64,000 nucleotides of DNA from Nostoc sp. CENA543. GTDB taxonomy: Bacteria; Cyanobacteriota; Cyanobacteriia; Cyanobacteriales; Nostocaceae. The stretch lies in NCBI RefSeq assembly GCF_002896875.1, contig NZ_CP023278.1, forward strand, positions 4,782,501-4,846,500, written 5' to 3'. The position numbers and the translations under genes are program-made. The notes under the pieces were generated by a model. The model ran no database searches, was not told where the DNA came from, and saw only the letters and a list, made by a program, of their open reading frames with translations. This document shows, piece by piece, positions 1,502 to 7,400 of the stretch. Positions within the stretch are counted from its first letter, which is position 1. Each line of letters begins with the position of its first letter.

Positions 1502-3157
1502 TTACCCACCGACTGTCTTAGTAAAACTATATATTTTCTGTGTTTCCAAGCGATCGCCCACCGTAGATGGTAACTCCCCATCTGGTATTGCTTGTCTATC
1601 TAGCTGGATTTGCAAGTTAGTGAGAGGATCACTACCAGCAGAAATCAAAAATTCTAGTTTTTGAATATAAGGTATGGCGGCTAAGTTGTCCAAAATTTGC
1701 AAAATGGCTTGTAGATAGGGATGACCAGCTTGTTGATACCAGTCGTTAGTGGCGACTGTTGGTTGGTCAAAACCCAAATGTACTGTTAATGATGGTTCAT
1801 CGAATAATGCGATCGCTAAGGGACGGGCTTCTTCCTGCAACAATAAGTCATAGCTTCTGACTAAATGCCGTAATTTCTCTAGGCGTTCGTAGCGTTTTGT
1901 GACTAATTGCGGGTCATCTTGCCAGTGAATTGCTACTGTCACCAAATAGGTCTGTAGCAGCATATGACCAAGTTTTTTCGCTTTAGTCGCCAAGTAATAA
2001 GAATTGTAGTCGTTACTTTCAATTAACAATGGCACGCGATCTACAACTTCCAAGCCATAACCTTTCACCCCAGCAATTTTACGGGGATTATTGGTAATCA
2101 GGCGAATTTTTTTCACACCCAAATCCATCAGCATTTGCGCCCCCATTCCATAGTCACGCAAATCGGCGGGGAATCCTAAACGCTCATTTGCTTCTACGGT
2201 ATCCAGTCCCATATCTTGTAAGGAGTAGGCTTTGAGCTTGTTAATCAAGCCAATTCCGCGTCCTTCTTGACGCAGGTAAACCACCACACCTTGACCTGCT
2301 TTTTCAATCATGTTCAAAGCGGCTTGTAACTGCATCCGACAATCACACCGCAAAGAACCCAACGCGTCACCTGTGAGACATTCAGAGTGCATTCGCACCA
2401 TTACAGGCTCATCTTGAAAGTTAGCGGGATCGCCTTTGACAATGGCAACGTGTTCTGTGTTATCCAAAGTGTGGCGATAGGCGTAAATGTCAAACTGACC
2501 AAATTGACTAGGTAGGCGAGTTACCACTTCGCGGTATACCAAGCGATCGTGTTTGAGGCGATAACTAATTAAATCGGCAATGCTAATAATTTTCAGGTTA
2601 TGGTGTTGGGCGTATTCGATCAACTGCTGTAACCTAGCCATTGAACCATCGGGGTTTTGAATCTCGCAAATTACCCCTGCTGGATATAATCCGGCTAATC
2701 GTGCCAAATCTACAGCCGCCTCCGTATGTCCGGCACGCTTGAGAACACCGCCAGCCCTCGCCCTTAAGGGGAAAATATGCCCAGGACGACGTAAATCTGA
2801 AGGTTTGGTGGCTGGGTTCAGAGTCACCTGGATGGTACGGGCGCGGTCGTCGGCAGAGATACCAGTAGATACACCTAAATGGGGACTGGCATCAATACTG
2901 ACGGTAAAAGCCGTTTGGTTAGGGTCTGTGATGTTTGTCACCATTAATGGTAAATCCAGTTCATCCAGGCGATCGCCTGTCATTGCCAAACAGATTAACC
3001 CTCTGGCTTCCACCGCCATAAAATTAATCATGTCAGGGGTGGCAAATTGCGCTGCACAAATTAAATCGCCTTCATTTTCTCGATTTTCATCATCTACCAC
3101 GACAATGGCGCGGCCAGCCTTGAGGTCTGTCAAGGCAGCATCAATAGAATCAAACAT
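1502..3157 (-). CDS. ribBA: Bifunctional 3,4-dihydroxy-2-butanone-4-phosphate synthase / GTP cyclohydrolase II
   Basis: Catalyses the two entry reactions of riboflavin synthesis: ribulose-5-P to dihydroxybutanone phosphate, and GTP to the pyrimidine precursor. The DHBP synthase half (about residues 1-200) shows [15 protein letters not shown] and the GHIFPLRAR...[14 protein letters not shown] signature. The GTP cyclohydrolase II half (about 205-400) shows the zinc motif in [17 protein letters not shown] and [10 protein letters not shown]. Beyond residue ~400 there is an extra ~150-residue domain not found in the usual ~400-aa RibBA of other bacteria; it looks like the extension seen in cyanobacterial homologues (from memory) and its role is unknown. 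No FMN riboswitch is evident upstream. The gene is divergent from the argC-like gene across a ~500-bp spacer. Confidence 0.96.
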
Positions 3158-3658: not shown

Positions 3659-4717
3659 ATGGGTAATTTCAGACGCGTACCCGTTGGCATTGTTGGCGCG
3701 TCAGGCTATGGCGGAGTACAACTAGTACGGTTACTAATGGAGCATCCAGAGGTAGAACTAGTTTATTTAGGTGAAGAAAATAGTACAGGTAAGGCTTTTA
3801 CGTCTGTTTACCCCCATCTAACTAATATGGTGAAATTGCCCCTAGAGGCAATAGATCCAGAAGTCATTGCCCGACGTTGTGAGGTAATATTTCTTGCACT
3901 ACCAAATGGTTTAGCTTGCCAGTTGACACCAGCATTAATAGAGAAAGGGTGTAAAGTTCTGGATTTGAGTGCAGATTATCGATTCAAGAATTTGGCAACC
4001 TATACCAATTGGTATGGTAACGATCGCAGCGACCATCATACAGCAAGTAATGCCGTGTATGGCTTACCAGAACTTTATCGCGATCGCATTGCCGATGCCC
4101 AGCTTGTTGGTTGTCCTGGTGCTTACCCCACAGCTAGTCTTTTAGCACTTCTGCCCCTCTTTAAACAAGGCTTAATTGTTCCTGAAACTGCCATTATTGA
4201 CGCTAAGTCCGGCGCATCAAGTGCAGGTCGGGAAGCCAAAACACACCTATTGTTAGCAGAAGCCGATAATTCTCTAGCTGCCTATAGTGTTGCTCGTCAC
4301 CGCCATACTCCAGAAATTGAGCAAATTTGTAGCGAACTAGCAGGACATGAAGTGACAGTACAGTTTACCCCCCACCTTGTACCGATGGTGCGGGGAATGT
4401 TAGCAACAGTATACGCCACACTCCGCGATCCTGGTCTAGTAGGAGACGATTTAGCAACTATTTATACTGCGTTTTACCGTAATTCACCTTGGGTAAAAAT
4501 TTGTGAAACCGGAGTATACCCGCAAACCAAGTGGGCAAGCGGTAGCAACGTTTGTTATATAGGTATAGAAGTTGACCCGCGTACTGGACGAGTGATTGTC
4601 ATGTCAGTCATCGACAACTTAATCAAAGGCCAGGCGGGTCAAGCAATTCAGTGTCTCAACATCATGATGGGTTGGGATGAGACATTGGGTTTACCCAAAT
4701 TGGGGTTTTATCCGTGA
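3659..4717 (+). CDS. N-acetyl-gamma-glutamyl-phosphate reductase-like protein, catalytic Cys replaced by Ala
   Basis: The 352-aa protein is full length for ArgC, which reduces N-acetylglutamyl-5-phosphate with NADPH in arginine synthesis. Visible: the N-terminal nucleotide-binding motif [11 protein letters not shown], the middle DLSADYRF, the catalytic-base region [11 protein letters not shown] and the C-terminal [13 protein letters not shown]. The family nucleophile sits in PGCYPTA. Here codons 150-157 read VGCPGAYPT-like, with GCT (Ala155) at the Cys position (4121-4123) and a Cys three residues earlier (152). The next loop reads [11 protein letters not shown] instead of the usual SGVSGAGR. 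Full length with good conservation argues for a retained protein, but canonical activity is doubtful. From memory, Nostocales carry two argC-like genes, one of them called argL and tied to cyanophycin and heterocyst function; this may be that paralogue. ATG 3659 is chosen because of AAGGA ten bases upstream. Confidence 0.9.
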
Positions 4718-4836
4718 AAGGGGCATTGGGCATTGGGCATCGGGCATTGGGTATTGGGCATTGAGCATTGTATTTTTCTCCCCCTGCTCCCCCTGCTCCT
4801 CATCTCCCTTGTCTCCCAGTCCCCAGTCCCCAGTCC
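4718..4836. repeat. Heptamer tandem repeats between argC-like gene and eno
   Basis: Tandem GGGCATT/GGGTATT units (about 4721-4768) are followed by C-rich CCCCTGCT and CCCAGTC repeats (about 4780-4836). The two halves are of roughly opposite base composition and could fold back, filling the space between two convergent genes. Confidence 0.75.
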
Positions 4837-6443
<1,607 letters not shown>

Positions 6444-7287: not shown

Positions 7288-7400
7288 GAGGCAGGGGGGA
7301 ATTGGGCAGGGGGCAGGGGGAAAAGGTAGAAAAGGTAAATTTTATTCTTATGCCCAATCCCCAATGCCCAATGCCCCATACCCAATCCCCAATCAATCTG
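7288..7400. repeat. G-rich and C-rich short tandem repeats
   Basis: GGGCAGG units just after the upstream stop, then GCCCAAT/CCCCAAT units (about 7350-7395). The two halves are complementary in composition. ORFs running through here are by-products of the repeats. Confidence 0.65.

Follow-up and report, generated by a model that had tools for sequence, protein, structure and literature searches.

Recurrent loss of the catalytic cysteine from a well-preserved ArgC suggests a non-enzymatic job for this protein in many heterocyst-forming cyanobacteria that carry a second ArgC

The window analysed in the current work, a stretch of 64,000 nucleotides of Nostoc sp. CENA543 (G000:C1:4782501-4846500), contains at positions 3659 to 4717 (+ strand) a gene, here named argC1, whose 352-residue product is identified by translation and profile searches as an ArgC orthologue without the catalytic cysteine. 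Among the genomes read, this cysteine was lost only where a second ArgC, named ArgC2, is present, and the recurrence of the loss together with the good preservation of the protein in many ArgC2-bearing heterocyst-forming cyanobacteria suggests that ArgC1 has a different, non-enzymatic job. It is probable that catalysis has passed to ArgC2 and that ArgC1 is a putative pseudoenzyme kept for a non-catalytic role. The more specific proposal, that ArgC shed its chemistry some six times where ArgC2 was present and now serves heterocyst-forming cyanobacteria as a putative regulator or scaffold dedicated to arginine and cyanophycin synthesis, is advanced tentatively, as a possible though rather doubtful extension.

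In the ArgC family, the cysteine of a PGCYPT motif forms a thioester and a histidine of an HRH motif acts as base. Translation of 3659-4717 revealed a single stop codon, the terminal one, and confirmed the central claim of the first-pass annotation, including its coordinates and numbering: residues 152 to 157 read C-P-G-A-Y-P, PGAYPT replacing PGCYPT, and by family alignment the catalytic position is occupied by alanine (codon 155, GCT, 4121-4123, + strand). The protein had further been described as a full-length ArgC retaining HRH and free of stops or frameshifts, which agrees with a score of 444.2 bits against the NCBIfam model TIGR01850 (cut-off 233.6, residues 8 to 352 matched) and with the presence of H214-R215-H216 (4298-4306, + strand). 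Two other features have departed from the ordinary state. The loop formed by residues 184 to 191 (4208-4231, + strand) reads SGASSAGR, in place of the SG(T/A)SGGGR that is found in 38 of 40 ArgC1 proteins read from ArgC2-free genomes outside the family of the window (SGTSGGGR in all 111 ArgC2-free relatives within it), and residue 39 (3773-3775, + strand), located just past the second strand of the predicted model (residues 32 to 37), is glutamate, being glycine in those same 111 relatives.

Pfam searches with the ArgC1 sequence returned the semialdehyde dehydrogenase domains PF01118, PF22698 and PF02774, and the closest solved structure by sequence was that of Thermotoga ArgC (1vkn, E 5.8e-101). 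An AlphaFold model predicted from 24 aligned rows reached moderate confidence, with a mean pLDDT of 67.9 and values below 50 for residues 183 to 216, and was therefore read for the family fold and not for pocket geometry; its best Foldseek match was again 1vkn (E 1.7e-34), and ArgC1 as modelled has the semialdehyde dehydrogenase fold of its family. Window ArgC1 thus has in common with the long ArgC type of TIGR01850 its full length, its score of 444 bits, its top solved match and the gene neighbourhood of Cys-bearing cyanobacterial loci, but differs from it by the missing catalytic cysteine and by the altered active-site loop and position 39.

The genes flanking argC1, a ribBA-like gene upstream (1502-3157) and an enolase-like gene downstream (4837-6126), both on the - strand and thus opposite to argC1, form a conserved neighbourhood and were used as orthology markers. 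A sample of 87 argC1 loci with flanks, 24 of them Cys-less and 63 Cys-bearing, was inspected, and both neighbours were present in the arrangement of the window at 23 of the 24 Cys-less loci, the remaining one having no room for the downstream neighbour, and at 54 of the 63 Cys-bearing loci, the other nine lacking one neighbour within the examined flank or the room for it. Because the ribBA-argC-eno arrangement is common to Cys-less and Cys-bearing relatives, the possibility of a recent duplicate was rejected; judged by gene order, the Cys-less gene and the ordinary cyanobacterial ArgC are orthologues, the former having lost the cysteine. The initial suggestion of a non-catalytic paralogue is supported in its first half, non-catalytic being the best reading, and fails in its second. 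At residue 155, the best 80 relatives on named contigs carried alanine (2), serine (16) or cysteine (62).

A search of the genome with the ArgC1 protein, of the kind proposed in the first-pass annotation for a second argC encoding PGCYPT, retrieved ArgC1 itself and one further ArgC of 322 residues, ArgC2, located approximately 103 kb away (G000:C1:4889557-4890525; L002:1252-2220). ArgC2 possesses an intact motif (SNPGCYPTG) and, since it scores 544.7 bits against TIGR01851 (argC_other, cut-off 229.85), it belongs to a different subfamily, the short ArgC type, which has its annotated reaction and superfamily in common with ArgC1 but, unlike the latter, keeps PGCYPT, the two proteins being 35% identical over residues 125 to 346. 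The cysteine of ArgC2 was retained in all 85 tblastn matches read, some of which represent duplicate loci. Among plasmid records outside the cyanobacteria, 44 contained a relative of ArgC2, in every case less than 60% identical (best 51%) and, by genus names, mostly from Proteobacteria.

In order to relate the state of ArgC1 to ArgC2, 217 genomes of the family of the window were searched with both proteins, ArgC2 being scored as present at E <1e-100. ArgC2 was present in 104 genomes and absent from 113. All but one genome of each group contained ArgC1: 103 of the former, where G189 (72% complete) is without it, and 112 of the latter, where G258 lacks both proteins. Residues of ArgC1 were read in 214 genomes, with G109, G189 and G258 excluded. 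All 111 ArgC2-free genomes carried both Cys155 and HRH, whereas the 103 ArgC2-bearing ones displayed serine (50), cysteine (44), alanine (6) or glycine (3) at residue 155, corresponding to replacement of the cysteine in 59, and an altered HRH in 23 (HRD in 10, HHH in 9, HRQ in 3, HRS in 1); Cys155 and HRH were both kept in 25. The complete canonical set of Cys155, HRH, SGTSGGGR and G39 was present in 111/111 ArgC2-free as against 9/103 ArgC2-bearing genomes, and as these nine keep the full set, ArgC2 alone does not force the loss. All 13 genomes of the genus of the window bear ArgC2, and residue 155 is alanine in six of them (that of the window included, as determined by the alignment of orthologues that had been suggested as a check), glycine in three, serine in two and cysteine in two. 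G103 and G167, which belong to otherwise ArgC2-bearing genera, are without ArgC2 and have kept cysteine and HRH.

Two side observations concern individual loci. The sole ArgC1 of the ArgC2-free genome G109 (L310, G109:C137:3500-6500) changes frame around residues 269 to 272 and is thereby split in two; as its Cys155 and HRH are intact, the split may reflect either an error in the assembly or a genuine break. In G232 and G208 (L190 and L197), ArgC1 has Cys155 together with HRD and a changed loop (SGIFDCGQ and SGTYGCGQ, respectively), the active site thus departing by another route.

A gene tree of the family was built without codons 155 and 214-216, on which parsimony placed six losses of the cysteine, four to serine (43, 4, 2 and 1 genomes), one to glycine (3 genomes) and one to alanine (6 genomes), as well as eight changes at HRH. 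All 14 events fall on ArgC2-bearing branches, which make up 40.6% of the tree length. If events were distributed evenly by branch length, the chance of this outcome would be 0.0044 for the six losses and 3e-6 for all fourteen events, and if distributed by the share of amino-acid changes (47.8%), 0.012 and 3e-5, respectively; these figures are rough, as the branch labels were themselves assigned by parsimony on this tree. In the window's genus, a 27-row tree rejected the grouping of all 11 Cys-less genes in a single clade (AU p 9e-5), so that at least two losses occurred within this genus alone. An independent-pairs test, with only 6 supported pairs, was not significant (median p 1), lineages beside gains or losses of ArgC2 mostly keeping the cysteine.

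The drift that accompanies ArgC2 is concentrated in the active site. Positions constant on ArgC2-free branches had changed on ArgC2-bearing ones at 10 of 12 active-site residues as compared to 54 of 157 others (Fisher p 0.0012), the active-site set (residues 155, 184-191 and 214-216) having been picked from motif knowledge after the alignment was viewed. The top single sites among 247 tested, uncorrected, were 188, 39 and 189; drift at position 39 hints at relaxed cofactor handling, though the glycine motif stays. Conversely, of the 210 positions that are nearly invariant in ArgC2-free proteins, 168 show the same near-invariance across the 59 Cys-less proteins; these include the Rossmann glycines, C152, H214 and the C-terminal GFYP.

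This retained framework, with its Rossmann glycines, C152 and H214, is what could be expected if ArgC1 were still an enzyme in which Cys152, Ser155 (in the serine lineages) or another group serves the same or a new reaction, an explanation that we regard as improbable. The first-pass annotation had proposed that Cys152, three residues upstream, took over. Codon 152 (TGT, 4112-4114, + strand) encodes a cysteine in 214/214 ArgC1 proteins of the family and 40/40 read outside it, with or without Cys155, and because it is equally invariant in Cys155-bearing relatives it does not represent a compensatory gain; it was rejected as a substitute nucleophile of that kind, even if chemistry alone still allows it. 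The alanine, glycine and glutamate found at residue 155 offer neither thiol nor hydroxyl, the glycine lineage has in addition lost the last histidine of HRH (HRQ), and the branches with ArgC2 show drift at position 39 and in the 184-191 loop. Furthermore, the title of PDB entry 5ein records a solved mutant structure, the C148A variant of LysY of Thermus thermophilus (an ArgC homologue) in complex with NADP+ and a ligand, so that a Cys-less member can, as far as this title tells, fold and bind; that cysteine-to-alanine change is engineered where the one in ArgC1 is natural, and residue 148 may correspond to residue 155.

In the family of the window, Cys-less ArgC1 is retained and its protein sequence is subject to strong purifying selection, in line with the earlier remark that selection seemed to preserve the protein. 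Codon models gave omega values of 0.090 for the alanine clade (6 sequences), 0.102 for the glycine clade (3) and 0.104 for the serine clade of genus g38 (43), and fixing omega at 1 lowered the log-likelihood by 287, 89 and 707 units, respectively (compared with kappa fixed at 2.5). The HRD clade (9 sequences) gave 0.110, and Cys-keeping genera with ArgC2 gave 0.113 and 0.128, the latter value being that of g8, which has one ArgC2-free member. ArgC1 of seven ArgC2-free genera yielded 0.046, 0.048, 0.049, 0.052, 0.065, 0.067 and 0.132; as the Cys-less values are about twice those of six of these seven, the constraint is somewhat relaxed. Amino-acid changes per unit branch length amounted to 122 on ArgC2-free, 157 on ArgC2-bearing Cys and 175 on Cys-less branches, a modest acceleration for the protein as a whole. 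For ArgC2 itself, omega was 0.075 in the genus of the window and 0.122 in g38.

Outside the family, a class sample of 388 genomes drawn evenly was searched for ArgC2 (E <=1e-60) and ArgC1 (E <=1e-40), which were detected in 29 and 363 genomes, respectively. Twenty of the 29 ArgC2-bearing genomes lie outside the family of the window, and in 14 of these (13 of f29 and one of f20) the search for ArgC1 gave no match besides ArgC2 itself; G447 (5 contigs) and G604 (20 contigs), for example, have a stated completeness of 100%. Of all results in the present analysis, this one speaks most strongly for ArgC2 being sufficient, and evidently ArgC2 can replace ArgC1, as far as gene content tells. The other six have ArgC1, and three of them show Ser155 or Glu155: three genomes of f32 display serine in two cases and cysteine in the third, the f43 genome G353 has Glu155 and HCQ in a protein 43-45% identical, and two genomes of f27 contain one partial and one frame-split ArgC1, both with cysteine. 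The ArgC1 of G353, a one-contig genome with ArgC2, is strongly diverged (L316, G353:C1:1678743-1679780; aligned over residues 6 to 347). The control set consisted of 40 ArgC1 genes from ArgC2-free genomes outside the family, hand-picked for spread over families from among the matches listed; all 40 keep Cys155, HRH and G39.

ArgC1 was missing from 25 of the 388 genomes. Twenty of these are listed by name, nine being ArgC2-bearing and eleven ArgC2-free (G258, G335, G366, G423, G472, G483, G485, G495, G498, G503 and G555), and the five unlisted ones fit the remaining five ArgC2-bearing genomes outside the family. Approximately 11 of the 359 ArgC2-free class genomes are therefore also without ArgC1, some of these absences being probably due to incompleteness. 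G258, a single contig of 3.8 Mb given as 99% complete and devoid of both proteins, may, by its gene content, be an arginine auxotroph.

That 14 of the 20 ArgC2-bearing genomes from other families gave no match to ArgC1 is also what redundancy alone predicts, and together with the mildly raised omega and the partial or frame-split genes of the two f27 genomes it would fit an ArgC1 that is merely redundant and slowly decaying, its retention reflecting a time lag. We consider such decay unlikely, given that ArgC1 was kept in 103 of 104 ArgC2-bearing genomes of the window's family, that omega within Cys-less clades is about 0.09-0.10, and that the alanine clade reaches a pairwise dS of up to 1.13 (with dN 0.082) with zero stops. 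A sequencing or assembly error at codon 155 is practically impossible and was rejected, since the change from cysteine to alanine takes two base changes and the same GCT occurs in five further genomes of the genus.

The reading in which catalysis has passed to ArgC2 can be set out as follows. The gene of the window is the original cyanobacterial argC; ArgC2 would carry the N-acetylglutamyl-phosphate reductase step; ArgC1, having lost the capacity for thioester formation, would be a pseudoenzyme, kept, as we propose, for a binding or scaffolding role of its fold. If ArgC2 took over the catalytic task and ArgC1 then lost its chemistry, this would account for the association and its direction, and also for the genomes elsewhere that have no ArgC1. 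It leaves the retention of ArgC1 in the window's family unexplained; here, the strong constraint on the protein sequence away from the active site suggests that the fold itself has a role. The most plausible setting would be arginine metabolism, where ArgC1 might contact N-acetylglutamate kinase or hold the labile acyl phosphate, and this second role may already have existed in the active ancestor.

The argL gene of Nostoc ellipsosporum was reportedly termed an arginine biosynthesis gene by Leganes and colleagues in 1998. Its mutation results in akinetes without cyanophycin, according to a later paper that mentions the result (PMC4586427). The argL gene may correspond to either ArgC1 or ArgC2. 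A role of ArgC1 in the control of arginine or cyanophycin is possible, as a guess from the ancestry of the protein and the argL report. No title describing a Cys-less cyanobacterial ArgC was present among the matches listed in the literature search.

If the proposed reading is correct, many nitrogen-fixing cyanobacteria possess a textbook enzyme of amino-acid synthesis in non-catalytic form only, and the naming model TIGR01850 still scores this protein far above its cut-off as a reductase. The case would represent a recurrent conversion of enzyme to pseudoenzyme by displacement, exposing a hidden second role of ArgC, and it would bear on the old argL result concerning cyanophycin, heterocysts and akinetes. 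The repeated, lineage-separate losses constitute a natural experiment, in which the constraints that catalysis places on a single fold are told apart from the non-catalytic ones, and they indicate a second ArgC function that is testable in tractable Nostoc and Anabaena strains.

Relatives matching members of the window's genus are Trichormus sp. M33_DOE_039, Anabaena sp. 4-3 and Anabaena subtropica, and for this reason its GTDB name is probably Trichormus. We take Anabaena PCC 7120 to be close to this genus. The locus tag alr1080, considered as argC of PCC 7120, was rejected, as it is listed as an ornithine transaminase (PMC4234267), and a literature search for another tag, alr3537, gave no paper. 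No NtcA-type site (GTA-N8-TAC) was present within 300 bases upstream of argC1, either in the window or in any of ten relatives from its genus. Downstream of argC, the regions between genes contain arrays of 7-base tandem repeats at 4721-4770, 4815-4837, 6301-6350 and 7353-7394, with repeat units GGGCATT, CCCAGTC, AATGGGG and CCCAATC.
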